From positions 462,501 through 526,500 of the forward strand of contig NZ_AP023361.1 in the NCBI RefSeq assembly GCF_014191545.1: DNA of 64,000 bases, in the 5' to 3' direction. This DNA is from Terrihabitans soli. Its GTDB lineage: Bacteria > Pseudomonadota > Alphaproteobacteria > Rhizobiales > Methylopilaceae. Each line of letters opens with the position of its first letter. Position 1 is the stretch's first letter. Shown here in pieces: positions 13,021-63,773 of this stretch. Both the position numbers and the translations under genes were made by a program. The notes beneath the pieces were generated by a model that did no database searches, had not been told where the DNA came from, and saw nothing but the letters and a program-made list of their open reading frames with translations.

Positions 13021-13048
13021 AAATGCCCGGCCTTTGGCCGGGCATTTT
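13021..13048 (+). terminator. Intrinsic terminator after the chemoreceptor gene
   Basis: aaatgcccggcc and ggccgggcatttt form a perfect 12-bp stem with a two- to four-base loop. It lies 29 bases after the chemoreceptor stop codon. Confidence 0.85.
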
Positions 13049-13077
13049 GCGTTTGCGGAGACGCTGCCGCGCCGGAT

Positions 13078-13247
13078 ACTGTCTGTACACGATTAACGAA
13101 TGGACGTTACCGGGAACAGATGCGGCACGAATCGCTGACGCGGCGATGTTCCTAATAAGTCCGCACCAGATATGGTTGGCGAGACCCTTCCGGAGCCCAA
13201 GAGAGGCGCTTGCGAAGGCGTTAAACGCCGCTCCAAACGTTAACGCG
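13078..13247 (+). repeat. Structured intergenic repeat, copy A
   Basis: This stretch aligns with copy B at 13547-13720 at roughly 70-75% identity over its first 100 bases. Shared blocks include ttaacgaatgg, gggaac, ggcacgaatc, ctgacgc, gatgttcc and taagtc. The bases 13113-13118 (ggaaca) pair with 13147-13152 (tgttcc), and 13121-13123 pair with 13143-13145. In copy B the same positions pair with different bases. The 3' end holds a second inverted repeat (gcgttaa with ttaacgc). It overlaps the stop codon of the 80-residue gene. It may be a small RNA or a mobile structured repeat. Confidence 0.65.
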
Positions 13248-13482
13248 CCTGCTGCTTCAGTCTCTCCAGAAGATCGTCGATCTCGGTGCCGCTATAGTTG
13301 GTGCTGTCGGTCATCACGAAGGCAGTCTTTCGCAGATGCGGGGCAAGGCTCTCTACAAAAACCAGCGTGTCGCGCAGGGTTTTGAAGGGCCGGACATTGC
13401 CCGGCCCGCCATGGATGTCACCGAACACCGGCTTGTCGGACCAGGAGACCGTGGCTTCCCGGTCGAAGTCGAAATAGCTCAT
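13240..13482 (-). CDS. Hypothetical protein (80 aa) between two structured repeats
   Basis: The start ATG follows ggaggaggaacgccc, a strong ribosome binding site. The product begins MSYFDFDREATVSWSD, is acidic and soluble, and ends LLERLKQQAR. I recognise no domain. A central FKTLRDTLVFVESLAPHLR segment looks helical. The gene is bracketed by two same-direction copies of a structured repeat, one overlapping its stop codon and the other starting about 65 bases upstream of its start. This suggests the gene and one repeat copy were duplicated or moved together. Confidence 0.65.
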   Translation of the reverse strand: MSYFDFDREATVSWSDKPVFGDIHGGPGNVRPFKTLRDTLVFVESLAPHLRKTAFVMTDSTNYSGTEIDDLLERLKQQAR

Positions 13483-13546
13483 GGGCGTTCCTCCTCCAGG
13501 GGAGTCTAGGGCGGGGCTTGCGCGGAGCAATGGGAAAAGCCGTTAT

Positions 13547-13720
13547 ATCGTACATACACGAGTTAACGAATGGGCCGGAGGGGGAACGGACCCGGCACGA
13601 ATCACTGACGCTGGGATGTTCCGCTTAAGTCTACACAAGATGTGGGTGGCCGCTGTCCGCGGACGCATATTCCTGCGCACGCGGACAGCCGAAAACGCCG
13701 CTCAAGTGTTAACACCCGGA
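13547..13720 (+). repeat. Structured intergenic repeat, copy B
   Basis: This is the second copy of the repeat at 13078-13247, in the same orientation. The stem 13583-13588 with 13617-13622 and the inner stem 13591-13593 with 13613-13615 match copy A position by position. A copy-specific long hairpin follows (gctgtccgcg at 13652-13661 with cgcggacagc at 13680-13689, enclosing cgca and tgcg). The copy ends in the palindrome gtgttaacac at 13706. It lies upstream of the 80-residue gene and beyond the 3' end of thiC. Confidence 0.65.
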
Positions 13721-13738: not shown

Positions 13739-15795
<2,057 letters not shown>

Positions 15796-15846
15796 TTTAC
15801 GAGGAAAAGTCTTTAAGCCTTACGGCCCGCCGGTCAAGTAAAACCG

Positions 15847-29154: not shown

Positions 29155-29610
29155 CGGGATTCCCCCAGTAAATACGCGTTGGCTCTTGCGTTGAGGACGC
29201 CCGTTTCGGAAACGCGGTGGAAGCGCTCCGACGTATCGTCTTCAACACTGCCGGTTCAGATGAACCGGCGGCTCTTGTCGCGCCGATAGCTGGAATCTCT
29301 CCGTGGCAGCCAAGCTGCTTCGGGTTTGAGTCCGGCCAACGTTTGGAAGGGAATTCCCGTCCGCACGCCCGGCAAGGAAGTAGTCTGCCTCTTCAGCAGA
29401 GACCGGGTTTGGACCAACCGGTCTTCGACTAAAAAAGCCCTCTACGTCGTTGCTTTAAGCTGCGTCCGCCGGCAGAGCGCCGACTTAAACCCGGTTTTTA
29501 GTCCGGTTACCGGTCTGCCCAGACGGGGCTTCCGTCTAGACCGGCACGCAGCCACAGGCACGTGCGAAATTGGGCAAGCGGGAGATAAGTGAAACGTCCC
29601 GCCGGTGCAA
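29155..29610 (-). promoter_or_regulatory. Long structured leader, candidate speF RNA motif
   Basis: About 450 bases without a protein gene precede the decarboxylase start. The region is full of inverted repeats, for example gccggttc with gaaccggc at 29250-29269, agacgg with ccgtct at 29521-29537, and the ccggt with accgg block near 29508. A possible -10 (ttatat on the minus strand) lies near 29620. The speF motif is an established structured RNA upstream of ornithine decarboxylase in alphaproteobacteria, and position and length agree. I could not check the consensus itself. Confidence 0.6.
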
Positions 29611-55329: not shown

Positions 55330-56031
55330 ATGCCAGGACGCCTCGCGCAAGGATTTGAGCCCGAAGAACTCCTGCGCCTCTTCAACGCCCGCGCCGGCGA
55401 TCTTGAGGGCGCTGGGCCGCGCTGGAATTCGGCGCCGACCCACAGATTGATGGCGGTGCGCAAGGATCCGCAGTCGGGAGAAAACGCGCTCGATCTTTTG
55501 CGCTGGGGGCTCGTGCCGCATTTCGCCAAAGACATGAAGGGCGGCGCAAGCCTCATCAATGCGCGCAGCGAAACGGTCTCATCTACCGCGCCCTTTCGTG
55601 ACGCCTGGGCAAAAAAGCGCCGCTGCCTCATCCCGCTCAAAGGTTATTACGAATGGCGCGGCGAGAAGGGCGCAAAACAGCCGCTGGCGATTGCGCTCGC
55701 ATCGAAAGAGCCGATGGCGCTCGCCGGCCTCTGGGAAAACTGGAAAGACAAGGAAAGCGGCTTATGGCTGCGCACCTTCACGCTCCTGACCTGTGAGCCG
55801 AATTCCGCCATCGCGGAATTTCATCACCGCATGCCGGTGATCGTACTGGCGGAACATCAAACGGGCTGGCTTGCGGGCGAGGATGCGGCCGGTCTCCTCA
55901 AACCCATCGCCTCGAAGCTTCTCGACATCCGGCCTGTCGGTACAGCGGTCAATAAGGTAGGGAATGAGGGGGAAGAACTATGGAATCGGATAAGCCAGTC
56001 CACGTCGATTTTTGGCCGGGAAACCATCTAA
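55330..56031 (+). CDS. SRAP (YedK/HMCES-like) protein lacking catalytic Cys2
   Basis: SRAP proteins trap abasic sites in DNA by a covalent link from Cys2. This 233-residue copy keeps the fold motifs: NARSET (Asn77, Arg79), GYYEW (Glu108) and FHHRMPVI (His166). The N terminus, however, reads MPGRLAQ instead of MCGRF, so the crosslinking cysteine is a proline. The last codons also differ: after VGNEGEELWN the frame runs into the protease gene and stops at 56031, 52 bases inside it. A second, diverged copy of the gene's 3' end lies 1.06 kb downstream. Activity is therefore doubtful. Confidence 0.82.
   Translation: MPGRLAQGFEPEELLRLFNARAGDLEGAGPRWNSAPTHRLMAVRKDPQSGENALDLLRWGLVPHFAKDMKGGASLINARSETVSSTAPFRDAWAKKRRCLIPLKGYYEWRGEKGAKQPLAIALASKEPMALAGLWENWKDKESGLWLRTFTLLTCEPNSAIAEFHHRMPVIVLAEHQTGWLAGEDAAGLLKPIASKLLDIRPVGTAVNKVGNEGEELWNRISQSTSIFGRETI
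55894..55976 (+). repeat. Direct repeat copy 1 (SRAP 3' end)
   Basis: These 83 bases, coding for LLKPIASKLLDIRPVGTAV and following residues of the SRAP protein, recur at 56956-57038 with about 80-85% identity. Shared blocks include cccatcgcctcg, cggcctgtcggtac and aaggtaggga. The copy also contains the ribosome binding site of the protease gene. Confidence 0.9.
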
Positions 56032-56933
56032 GCTATACGACAACGAAGATTGATATTTTCAGAAACGAGATCTTGCTTAGCTCAGCTACCGGATTTGTGA
56101 TGAGATATGGCCAGACTTATGCGCTGGTCACTAACTGGCATGTTCTAAGCGGTATCAATCCAGCAAATGGTTCTTGTTTGTCGCCGACAGGCGCTATCCC
56201 AGCCCAGATACGATGCCATGTCACGATCTCACAACAAGTGACGGTCGGTGCAACATCGGGCGAGCAGTTGTTCTTCAAGCCTATCATTATCGATCTGTAC
56301 GAAGGCGAAATGCCGGTCTGGCTAGAAAATCGTGAACATTTTCCCGAGAACGACTATGCGGCAATAGACTTGGGTGCAATCGTTCCTGAACTTGCCGATC
56401 CACGAGTTTCGCTGAGGTCCATACGATCAGGCGTAGTTACCTTAAAGAAGGGCAGGAAACCCCCGGCAGGAGACGTGGCAGTTGCCCCAGACGACTTCCA
56501 AAGTTTCTACCCGCCGGTGGGAAAGGAAGTGTTCGTTCTTGGATACCCAAAAGGCATAACTAGCACGGGCGTTTTCCCGATCTGGAAGCGCGCTTCGATC
56601 GCGTCTGAGCCGCAAGCCCCGACCAATCTTCGCGGCCGTGAGAGCCATGACGTTTTTTACATCGACGCAACAACGAAGCATGGAATGTCCGGATCGCCAG
56701 TGATTTGTTTAGCGAAGCCAGGCGATCTGTTCGTGACGATGGACGGCGTCCAGGTCGAGACAGAGAAAGAACAAGAACTGATAGTGGGTGTCTACGCGGG
56801 TCGGGAAGGGGTTACTCAAGAAGAGTATGAGTTGTCGCTAGGACGCGTCTGGAAAATTGGAGCGATCGAAGAGATGATTCGAAAAGGGCAACGTGCGTCA
56901 GGGATTGCTTACCCGAAGATAAAACCGCTTTAG
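55980..56933 (+). CDS. Trypsin-like serine protease, accessory region
   Basis: The 317-residue protein has the chymotrypsin-fold triad: His54 in YALVTNWHVLSG, Asp125 in ENDYAAIDLG and Ser237 in KHGMSGSPVI. There is no signal peptide or membrane segment, so it is cytoplasmic. Trypsin-like proteases of this kind are effectors or activators in several bacterial defence systems. The start ATG follows gggggaagaact, which lies within the SRAP 3' end. The codons are AT-richer than in the neighbouring genes, which points to horizontal transfer. A TIR-domain operon converges on it, with only the second SRAP fragment between. Confidence 0.8.
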   Translation: MESDKPVHVDFWPGNHLSYTTTKIDIFRNEILLSSATGFVMRYGQTYALVTNWHVLSGINPANGSCLSPTGAIPAQIRCHVTISQQVTVGATSGEQLFFKPIIIDLYEGEMPVWLENREHFPENDYAAIDLGAIVPELADPRVSLRSIRSGVVTLKKGRKPPAGDVAVAPDDFQSFYPPVGKEVFVLGYPKGITSTGVFPIWKRASIASEPQAPTNLRGRESHDVFYIDATTKHGMSGSPVICLAKPGDLFVTMDGVQVETEKEQELIVGVYAGREGVTQEEYELSLGRVWKIGAIEEMIRKGQRASGIAYPKIKPL

Positions 56934-56955
56934 CCTCAGACAATTACGTTCCGAT

Positions 56956-57038
56956 TCCCTGAACCCCATCGCCTCGGAGTTCCTCGACATTCGGCCTGTC
57001 GGTACGGCGGTCACCAAGGTAGGGAGCGAGGGGAGGGG
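56956..57038 (+). repeat. Direct repeat copy 2 (SRAP 3' end remnant)
   Basis: This is the second copy of the 83-base SRAP 3' segment, without the rest of the gene. It still reads LNPIASEFLDIRPVGTAVTK in the SRAP frame, but there is no start for it. Its differences from copy 1 include both silent and replacement changes, so it is not a fresh duplication. It lies between the convergent ends of the protease gene and the 174-residue gene. Confidence 0.88.
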
Positions 57039-57043
57039 CTGGC

Positions 57044-57568
57044 CTAGGTCGGCTCAGCTTGAGCCCTATGAACGAAAATCGGGCGTGCGCCATTATGAGA
57101 CCGGCTTTCAACGTTGTCCCAAATTTTCCAATCATAGATAGGAGCGCAGTTTTTGCCGAAGGAGTTGTCGACTAGGGCAAGGGTACTCAAGTTGAACTCT
57201 ACGCTGGGTGCTCCCCACCGATCTGCTGAAGGCTCGAAGGCTATTCGCAGTCCTTCGGGAGAAACGAGTAAAGTTCCTGAAGGAAAGTCTGATCGGGAAA
57301 GGTAGGTGCGGGTGTCATCTATTTCAGGCTCAATGACCCAATCCAATCCAAATGAAATGTAAAATTCGTCTGGCTGGTTCGAAATTAAAACTGCTGAGAA
57401 GCTTCCGTCTTTTAATGGAAATCGGAAATACCCCAACGTGAGCTCGGTGCTCGTTGGGGCACTCAAAACTAGGCCGAATGTCGGAATGGATCTGATCCGG
57501 CGACTGATCAATTCTCCTGGCTTTAACGTCGAGGCGGCTTTGACTTGAATTGAGCTCAGAAATTTCAA
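57044..57568 (-). CDS. Hypothetical protein (174 aa), TIR operon
   Basis: The TTG start at 57568 lies three bases after the zinc-ribbon stop codon. The protein begins MKFLSSIQVKAASTLKPGEL. Alternating hydrophobic segments (FGLVLSAPTSTELTLGYFRF; SAVLISNQPDEFYISFGLDW) suggest a beta-sandwich. No signal peptide, membrane segment or known domain is visible. The codons are AT-rich, as in the rest of the cassette. A frame at 57330-57575 that overlaps it is judged to be a shadow. Confidence 0.65.
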   Translation of the reverse strand: MKFLSSIQVKAASTLKPGELISRRIRSIPTFGLVLSAPTSTELTLGYFRFPLKDGSFSAVLISNQPDEFYISFGLDWVIEPEIDDTRTYLSRSDFPSGTLLVSPEGLRIAFEPSADRWGAPSVEFNLSTLALVDNSFGKNCAPIYDWKIWDNVESRSHNGARPIFVHRAQAEPT

Positions 57569-57571
57569 AGT

Positions 57572-57739
57572 TCACCCCCAGCCTGGACGGAAATCTCGGC
57601 GTTCACATTTGGGGCACGAGATGGGCGAGCCGGGTGGATCGTCGCGTTGTTCGCGCTCGCGAATTTCTTCCTTCGTAAGTACCTCTTCTTCCCACTCGTT
57701 TCCGCAATTGTTGCAGTGGAATTTTCTTTTCTCAGTCAA
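57572..57739 (-). CDS. Small zinc-ribbon protein (55 aa), TIR operon
   Basis: The product begins MTEKRKFHCNNCGNEWEEEV and ends PISCPKCERRDFRPGWG. Two CxxC pairs, separated by about 30 residues, form a zinc ribbon, with an acidic helical insert (LTKEEIREREQRDD). The TTG start lies inside the last codons of the TIR gene (overlap ttgactga), which implies coupled translation. It might be an adaptor that binds nucleic acid or protein. A longer open frame upstream would overlap most of the TIR C-terminal part and is not used. Confidence 0.65.
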   Translation of the reverse strand: MTEKRKFHCNNCGNEWEEEVLTKEEIREREQRDDPPGSPISCPKCERRDFRPGWG

Positions 57740-58661
57740 GTTCCACCCCCGCGCGGCGCAGAAAGTCAGTCCAAAGATAGTCTGCAACCTGTTGTCCAGA
57801 CATTCTTCCGTTTCCGTGATCTGTGGACATATATCCCGTGAGATACATCTGGTATTCGTCCGCATTGACGGAATACGATCCATGGTAGGAATTCTTAGAT
57901 TCCGCGTGTGCACTGTGAACGACAATGATCTCTCCGCGGTTTCCTTTCGAATTGTGAACCGTGATATGGCTTTCGCCATTCCGTTTTCCGCGGTTGACGA
58001 GCGTGCATGTAAAGGCTGTCGCGGACATTTCTTCGAACCGCGCTTTTAATAGTTCGATGGTATTTACTTCATCAGTGGATCTCTTGAAGAAATTCCGGAT
58101 TGTTTCGAACGCTTGATCCCGAAATTCAGATTTATCAATGACGTCGAAGTCTCTTTGTATTTTCACGCGAAGTTGTGAAGGCGTTGCGGCCAAAGGGGTG
58201 GCCGCCTTTTTGTCCGGCGCCTTCGAACTTGAAAGTGCATTGCGAACCTCACTGACGACATCCAGCCAAGCGAGATTCTCGTTGGTCCAAAGAGCTATAG
58301 GATTCCCATCTTTAGGAACGGCTTTGAACTTCGCTAACGGAGATGTCTGCCAATCGCACGGTTCAAGAATTATAGGTACAAGAAGCATGCTGCCGTCGCC
58401 GGCGCGCTCCAGTGCACGTTCCATCTCGCGTTCGTAGCAGTACTTTGATGCCAGATAATCAGGGCTAACCAGCGCAATAAATACATCGCATTTCTCCAGT
58501 GCGGTGGAGATGGCGCTATCCAGATTGGAGCCAGCAGTGATTTCCTTGTCGTGCCACGTGGATAAGATGCCGTCGCGCTTCAACATCGATAGATGCTTAT
58601 GCAAACGAGCGAGAGCCTTCTCATCACGGTGCGAGTATGAAATGAAGGCCTCTGCGGGCAT
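57732..58661 (-). CDS. TIR-domain protein with C-terminal unknown domain
   Basis: Residues 1-135 form a TIR domain of the bacterial TIR_2 type: EAFISYSHRDEKALARLHK at the start, and FIALVSPDYLASKYCYEREM with the likely catalytic Glu79. Such domains cleave NAD or make cyclic ADP-ribose signals in antiphage defence. Residues about 160-309 form a second domain of unknown fold (FRDQAFETIRNFFKRS; FTCTLVNRGKRNGESHITVH; YSVNADEYQMYLTGYM), perhaps the sensor. A gggatcaa site precedes the ATG. It is first in a three-gene operon. The AT-rich codons mark recent acquisition. Confidence 0.85.
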   Translation of the reverse strand: MPAEAFISYSHRDEKALARLHKHLSMLKRDGILSTWHDKEITAGSNLDSAISTALEKCDVFIALVSPDYLASKYCYEREMERALERAGDGSMLLVPIILEPCDWQTSPLAKFKAVPKDGNPIALWTNENLAWLDVVSEVRNALSSSKAPDKKAATPLAATPSQLRVKIQRDFDVIDKSEFRDQAFETIRNFFKRSTDEVNTIELLKARFEEMSATAFTCTLVNRGKRNGESHITVHNSKGNRGEIIVVHSAHAESKNSYHGSYSVNADEYQMYLTGYMSTDHGNGRMSGQQVADYLWTDFLRRAGVELD

Positions 58662-59079
58662 TTGATCCCTTTTTGTTCTTGCGTATAATTAGTTGTGGCG
58701 GTTGCAGGGCGCAATGTCTTTTTGATGCGCTTCACCGTTTTCCAATTCTGTCTTCGCAGCGCTCACCCCTTGTGTTTCAAAACCGTTCCAGTTAAACCCC
58801 TTCTAAATAAATAGGACAGCCTTGCTGTCCATTTGTTTCCCGGCGCATCTGCTCTAGGCTGTTTCCCTCTTGGGAACCGGACGGGAGAGGTGTCGCCTCT
58901 TTGGCGTTGGTGCGATGGGGATCGCACGAAGCGCAGCCGCGGACGGGGTGGAATGCTCCGGTTTTTCAAGGCTTGCGCAGTTTTTGCAGGGTTCCGGACG
59001 GACGCTCGAACTATGTCCCGGCCGGTCGATTGGGGTAATGCAGGCAATTGAGCCTGTTGGGATTTCGGGAACTGAGGCC
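58662..59079. other. Intergenic region before gltB, with one hairpin
   Basis: No protein gene was found in these 418 bases. The part up to about 58810 is AT-richer, like the TIR cassette, and should hold its promoter on the minus strand. ggacagc/gctgtcc at 58814-58830 forms a hairpin with atttgttt after it, which may act as a terminator. The remaining 250 bases, including an open frame in phase with gltB from 58870, presumably hold the gltB promoter and leader. I see no integrase or repeat that marks the right end of the cassette. Confidence 0.5.

Positions 59080-63773
<4,694 letters not shown>

Follow-up and report, generated by a model that had tools for sequence, protein, structure and literature searches.

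A conserved hairpin-forming element with an invariant CcrM site beside Suv3-like helicase genes of Alphaproteobacteria, with two further copies in Terrihabitans soli

The window, a 64,000-nt stretch of DNA from Terrihabitans soli, contains two copies (A and B) of a 91-nt element, with an open reading frame (ORF) of 80 residues between them. A strong GC hairpin followed by T residues at 13022-13050, directly after a chemotaxis gene, is likely an intrinsic terminator separating that gene from copy A. Elsewhere the window holds a TPP riboswitch ahead of thiC (15686-15802, minus strand), an Rfam ar45 sRNA (29433-29575, minus strand), and a local drop in G+C to 0.543, against about 0.62 around it, at 56001-60000. 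The parts of the two copies are listed here, with scores from covariance models R1 and R2 (described below).

13089-13179, plus strand: copy A, conserved 91-nt element (R1 91.1 bits, R2 81.9 bits)
13559-13649, plus strand: copy B, conserved 91-nt element (R1 88.7 bits, R2 80.5 bits)
13093-13096, no strand: TTAA of copy A, 35 nt before CGAATC (positional profile; kept in most relatives)
13563-13566, no strand: TTAA of copy B, inside GTTAACG (positional profile)
13101-13163, plus strand: hairpin of copy A (outer arms 13101-13105/13159-13163, inner arms 13113-13118/13147-13152)
13571-13633, plus strand: hairpin of copy B (outer arms 13571-13575/13629-13633, with G-T pairs; inner arms 13583-13588/13617-13622)
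13128-13134, minus strand: invariant CGAATCR of copy A, reading YGATTCG on the minus strand, a CcrM site in extended GcrA context (motif: PMC7987155)
13598-13604, minus strand: invariant CGAATCR of copy B, reading YGATTCG on the minus strand
13166-13175, no strand: tail palindrome CNANATNTNG of copy A, here CCAGATATGG (conserved columns, copy alignment)
13636-13645, no strand: tail palindrome CNANATNTNG of copy B, here CAAGATGTGG (conserved columns, copy alignment)
13652-13689, plus strand: copy-specific hairpin after copy B, GCTGTCCGCG/CGCGGACAGC (not kept in relatives)
13239-13244, no strand: 3' GTTAAC of copy A, read from the sequence; holds the stop codon of the 80-residue ORF
13708-13713, no strand: 3' GTTAAC of copy B, read from the sequence
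13240-13482, minus strand: ORF of 80 residues between copies A and B (no Pfam match; no relative in the genome contigs searched)

An earlier note on this DNA had described two related structured repeats around an 80-residue gene, and both the copies and the ORF are where it placed them. With copy A as query, blastn against the whole genome gave a single other match, copy B (78% over 95 bp, E 6.5e-15); the two copies are paralogues. The stem that the note reported as shared, corresponding to the inner arms listed above, was confirmed, and every base change that it listed between A and B is correct. It had overlooked the outer helix, TGGAC/GTCCG in A (13101-13105/13159-13163), which is part of the structure. 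Each copy is a nested hairpin composed of an outer helix, the inner helix GGAAC(A/G)/TGTTCC, and the apical segment GCACGAATC(G/A)CTGA. The three inner pairs that the note had stressed do change together, but across many relatives they are the worst-kept part of the structure (43-62% of cells paired), while the two main helices hold. The copy-specific hairpin that it proposed after each copy was strong in B (z -4.15) and weak in A (z -0.98).

Further copies were found, in part by a covariance-model search of this genome and its relatives such as the note had proposed. By blastn, three congeners carry copies: in G001 two copies stand in tandem, 230 bp from each other, and G002 and G003 hold separate ones. 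Eight copies from the genus were aligned (alignment A2) to build covariance model R1, which uncovered one more site in all four species of the genus. In this genome the third site (292,029-292,118) is flanked by a DUF3108 gene and by the gene for a Suv3-like helicase (Pfam DEXQc_Suv3, E 2.5e-26), and it contains two hairpins in tandem. R1 matched 125 of the 249 genomes of the order, spread over 62 of its 112 genera, and many of these matches were pairs in tandem, spaced by 220-270 bp. A refined model, R2, was prepared from 75 copies and matched 24 of the 240 genomes in a sample of the class; these matches reach about 15 families outside the order, with one copy per genome there. Other genomes hold one to five copies, and this one holds the tandem A/B pair and the third site. 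In Hyphomicrobiales the element is often repeated two to five times, and tandem copies are often ~200-270 bp apart. The element was confirmed in Sinorhizobium meliloti, Rhizobium sp. NLR16a (three tandem copies), and Shinella, and was not detected at the helicase loci of Paracoccus, Pseudorhodobacter, Sphingomonas, or Indioceanicola. Among the loci read, the largest array was five tandem copies in one locus (L109 1043-2139, from G121).

No Rfam family matched the element at either gathering or permissive thresholds, consistent with the earlier note, which did not recognise the family. A collection-wide DNA pattern search returned one match, in a Clostridiales MAG, which is probably due to chance. 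To look for a multi-copy REP or MITE expansion, 861 kb (the window together with a 797-kb sample of this genome) was searched with high sensitivity, and only the known copies were returned.

At nearly all loci examined, the element adjoins the start of the same Suv3-like helicase gene, and it lies on the strand opposite to the helicase in 91 of 91 copies from helicase-bearing loci. The distance between the conserved TTAA and the helicase start codon is usually 45-130 nt; in a few helicase loci the element is 500-930 nt from the helicase. The gene on the far side varies by lineage and includes DUF3108, acyl-CoA dehydrogenase, pyruvate carboxylase, and, in Sinorhizobium meliloti, phbB. Because the element adjoins the helicase start at nearly all of these loci, its home is the helicase promoter region, and the window copies are secondary and away from the helicase. 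The arrangement around an 80-residue gene, by which the repeats had been introduced, is incidental, the conserved home site being on the promoter side of the Suv3-like helicase gene, at a distance of 183 kb.

Some secondary copies reproduce the home geometry. On the minus strand, copy B is ~80 nt upstream of the start of the 80-residue ORF (TTAA 81 nt from the start) and stands to this ORF as the home copies stand to the helicase. The same geometry was found between a secondary copy in G001 and an MFS gene (~74 nt) and, as read from the sequence, between the extra G002 copy and a 6-phosphogluconate-dehydrogenase-like gene. However, of the genus's nine secondary copies, five, including A, lack a nearby gene start in the expected direction, so that duplication need not bring function. 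The tandem copies of G001 are spaced by 230 bp (L010:3733-4053) and those of the window by 470 bp, and the difference of 240 bp is close to the ORF length of 243 bp. It is as if the ORF had been inserted between two tandem copies.

The anatomy of the element was derived from 106 copies. Relative to CGAATC at position 0, TTAA lies at -35, GAACGAA at -25, and GGAAC(R)AA at -15, while GTTCC (~20-24), TTYGTTC (28-34), and then the palindrome CNANATNTNG lie downstream. CGAATC was invariant (106/106) and was followed by R in 103 of the 106 copies; the helicase strand thus reads YGATTCG, the extended CcrM/GcrA motif, within the core GTCAGYGATTCGG. CGAATC sits at the apex of the consensus hairpin, although single-sequence folds leave only about half of its bases unpaired. 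In the positional profile no position upstream of -35 was conserved, and no clear -35/-10 promoter was readable on either strand.

The paired changes between A and B had been taken as the signature of a selected structure, and the wider set of copies upholds this. Pair counts on the covariance-model alignment, which itself leans towards structure, gave a covariation score of 0.306, compared with 0.205 +/- 0.010 in shuffles (0 of 500), and the signal collapsed once the partner was slid. As a measure independent of structural alignment, 71 non-redundant copies were folded and compared with column-shuffled sets within GC bins, giving z -5.2 for the element strand and -6.1 for the helicase strand. 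Block shuffles gave z -3.1 and -4.4, respectively. With one copy per locus, the values were z -4.1 on both strands at <65% identity, and -5.2 and -5.5 at <60% identity. Support was weaker in a narrower test, in which single helix arms were exchanged between copies (z -1.7 for the outer and -2.5 for the inner helix). Pairing of the left inner with the right outer arm received no support, and an unguided mutual-information scan of the columns yielded mainly noise. As the copies' own folds beat column-shuffled folds, these data, together with the covariation, support the maintenance of the hairpin-forming symmetry by selection, most fold comparisons falling at z -4 to -6.

Whether the selected form is RNA, as the note had allowed, was addressed by comparing the strands. 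Neither was favoured for stability (31 vs 40 copies, p 0.23), and G-U pairs were equally frequent on the element (86/706) and helicase (88/693) strands. By contrast, a small control set of 11 tRNAs from the same sequences had the asymmetry that RNA should show: G-U pairs numbered 27/265 on one strand and 10/249 on the other, and the sense strand was the more stable in 10 of 11. Since neither strand of the element is preferred whereas the tRNA controls show asymmetry, the constraint appears to act at the DNA level rather than on RNA.

These comparisons bear directly on two RNA-based alternatives. The first is a small noncoding RNA (sRNA) transcribed divergently from the helicase, whose conserved apical loop CCGAATCRCTGAC would pair with targets or bind a protein and whose tandem copies would be sibling sRNAs. 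The selected hairpin, invariant loop, constant orientation, tandem repetition with a period of ~200-270 bp, and lack of coding potential (several copies contain stops or frame breaks) would all suit such an RNA. We nevertheless consider it unlikely, as stability and G-U use show no strand preference where the 11 tRNAs do, nothing upstream of -35 is conserved as a candidate sRNA promoter, and neither an Rfam match nor a conserved terminator was seen. The second places the hairpin in the 5' leader of the helicase mRNA, for example as an autoregulatory site for the helicase or for RNases. The position upstream of the helicase start and a helicase strand that folds at least as stably as the other (z -6.1) agree with a leader. 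Equal G-U content on both strands, the families in which 500-930 nt intervene, and extra copies away from any matching gene make it improbable.

We give similarly little credence to a mobile intergenic repeat of the CIR or MITE kind, devoid of host function and present at the helicase as a mere ancient insertion. Dispersed copies within the genus do occupy non-orthologous sites, some abutting TAA stop codons, and the description of CIRs in PMC2229807 is similar. A neutral insertion would not be expected to keep one site, one orientation, and an invariant core in many families, and the copy number is low. Beyond the palindromic GTTAAC at both ends there are no terminal inverted repeats, and the 5' TTAA is not a target duplication, because it is conserved at the ancestral helicase site too; the element thus lacks the terminal repeats and target-site duplication of a MITE.

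Three further readings were rejected or proved weak. Of the eight genus copies, two contain stops in the shared frame (GTxxARIxD..MF) and two others a frame break, which speaks against coding. A chromosome origin is disfavoured: DnaA boxes occur in only 7 of 67 stretches, and both hemE (53 kb) and the GC-skew switch are at other places. An LexA/SOS box (GAACN7GAAC or GTTCN7GTTC) is not conserved: within the order it is intact in 25/65 of the left arms and 8/65 of the right arms, and neither the genus nor the copies outside the order have an intact right arm. A DnaA-box-like TGTGGATAA/TGTGGAAAA was observed ~+98 from CGAATC at the third site of the genus (L024-L027), with a similar offset at L118 and L119, from two genomes of another order; it is absent at most other loci.

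GAATC is the target of CcrM, the cell-cycle methylation enzyme. Both CcrM (best solved match 6pbd CcrMI, E 2e-151) and GcrA are encoded in this genome. GANTC is sparse across this genome (1.5/kb), and around the elements it occurred 335 times compared with 152 expected from dinucleotide shuffles. In the class sample, GcrA was encoded in 24 of 24 element-positive genomes compared with 146 of 240 overall (P 2.9e-6, ignoring phylogeny), and CcrM in 23 of 24 compared with 169 of 240 (P 0.0017, likewise ignoring phylogeny). Genomes with GcrA and CcrM but without a detected element were common. The YGATTCG context (YGAKTCG/TGATTCG) has been reported for GcrA-activated promoters in Caulobacter, while that study reported GcrA to lack such a motif preference in Brevundimonas (PMC7987155). 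As in such promoters, YGATTCG lies upstream of the helicase start. In another genus of the same family (g2), GANTC-packed palindromes (e.g. GAACGAATC...GATTCGTTC) were seen near GTTAAC at three loci (L035, L037, and L040, each at ~1500), two of them downstream of a pheT-like gene; these are possibly a second, related family of CcrM-site elements.

We favour, at about even odds (a probability near 0.5), a promoter-proximal DNA module of the Suv3-like helicase gene that is methylated by CcrM, probably read by GcrA, and regulatory. This reading draws on the conservation, position, and orientation of the element, its invariant CcrM site, the selected hairpin symmetry, and the fact that genomes with the element tend to encode CcrM and GcrA. 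It predicts from sequence that the site is methylated in vivo, that GcrA binds there, and that transcription is affected. On the helicase strand, the module comprises the palindrome CNANATNTNG, a hairpin-capable inverted repeat of GAACRAA/TTYGTTC half-sites with GTCAGYGATTCGG at its centre, which holds a CcrM-methylatable GATTC in extended YGATTCG context, and GTTAAC 45-130 nt ahead of the helicase start codon. CcrM would methylate the central GATTC late in the cell cycle, and replication would leave it hemimethylated. GcrA, or another protein on the flanking GAACRAA repeats, would then read this state and set transcription of the adjacent gene. Probably, GcrA would act jointly with a protein bound to the repeated GAACRAA half-sites in controlling the helicase gene. 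Within this genus the module was duplicated to other sites as well; copy B may now serve the 80-residue ORF, and copy A may be idle.

More tentatively, the element could be an ancient cis-element of many alphaproteobacterial families that makes expression of the Suv3-like RNA helicase follow the CcrM methylation state of the chromosome. It would combine a methylation-readable DNA hairpin with a flanking operator of four half-sites, at times in tandem arrays, and would occasionally be copied before new genes to place them under the same control. CcrM and GcrA regulons are reported to be rewired quickly, even among close relatives. Against this background, it would be unusual for a CcrM-type site to stay at one gene in many families with its exact 7-bp context, its surroundings, its position, and its orientation unchanged. 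If the proposal is correct, an epigenetic cell-cycle circuit would be tied to RNA turnover via the Suv3-like helicase. Sinorhizobium meliloti, a laboratory model, carries the element, making the idea directly testable.

The element shares features with several known systems. Like the alphaproteobacterial LexA/SOS box GAACN7GAAC, its arms carry GAAC/GTTC half-sites with an 11-bp period, and some copies are identical to the box. It resembles alphaproteobacterial sRNAs in Rfam (e.g. ar45) in being intergenic, structured, and conserved in Hyphomicrobiales, but differs in having no covariance-model match and no strand preference of folding. With GcrA/CcrM promoters of the mipZ and ftsZ type it shares a methylatable GATTC in YGATTCG upstream of a gene, in genomes encoding GcrA and CcrM. 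Unlike any such promoter known to us, its site lies inside a conserved hairpin flanked by GAACRAA half-sites; promoter boxes could not be assigned here.

The CcrM-associated intergenic repeats (CIRs) of Caulobacter (Chen and Shapiro 2003) are abundant dispersed repeats with up to 21 copies. A later account describes them as ~110 bp long, with a pair of inverted-repeat arms joined by a linker, a GANTC located in a terminal loop, and function unknown (PMC2229807). By that description, the element is likewise intergenic, ~100 bp long, and an inverted repeat with GANTC in the terminal loop of one arm, followed by a linker and at times by a second arm, in CcrM-carrying Alphaproteobacteria. Of the two-arm layout, the first arm and linker are conserved in the element; the second arm is not conserved, forming strongly in B and weakly in A. 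Unlike the many dispersed CIRs, the element has one to five copies and is anchored at one gene in a fixed orientation. Because copy number and anchoring differ, and the comparison is by description rather than by sequence, we note the resemblance to CIRs without filing the element among them; it may offer a lead on the role of these repeats.
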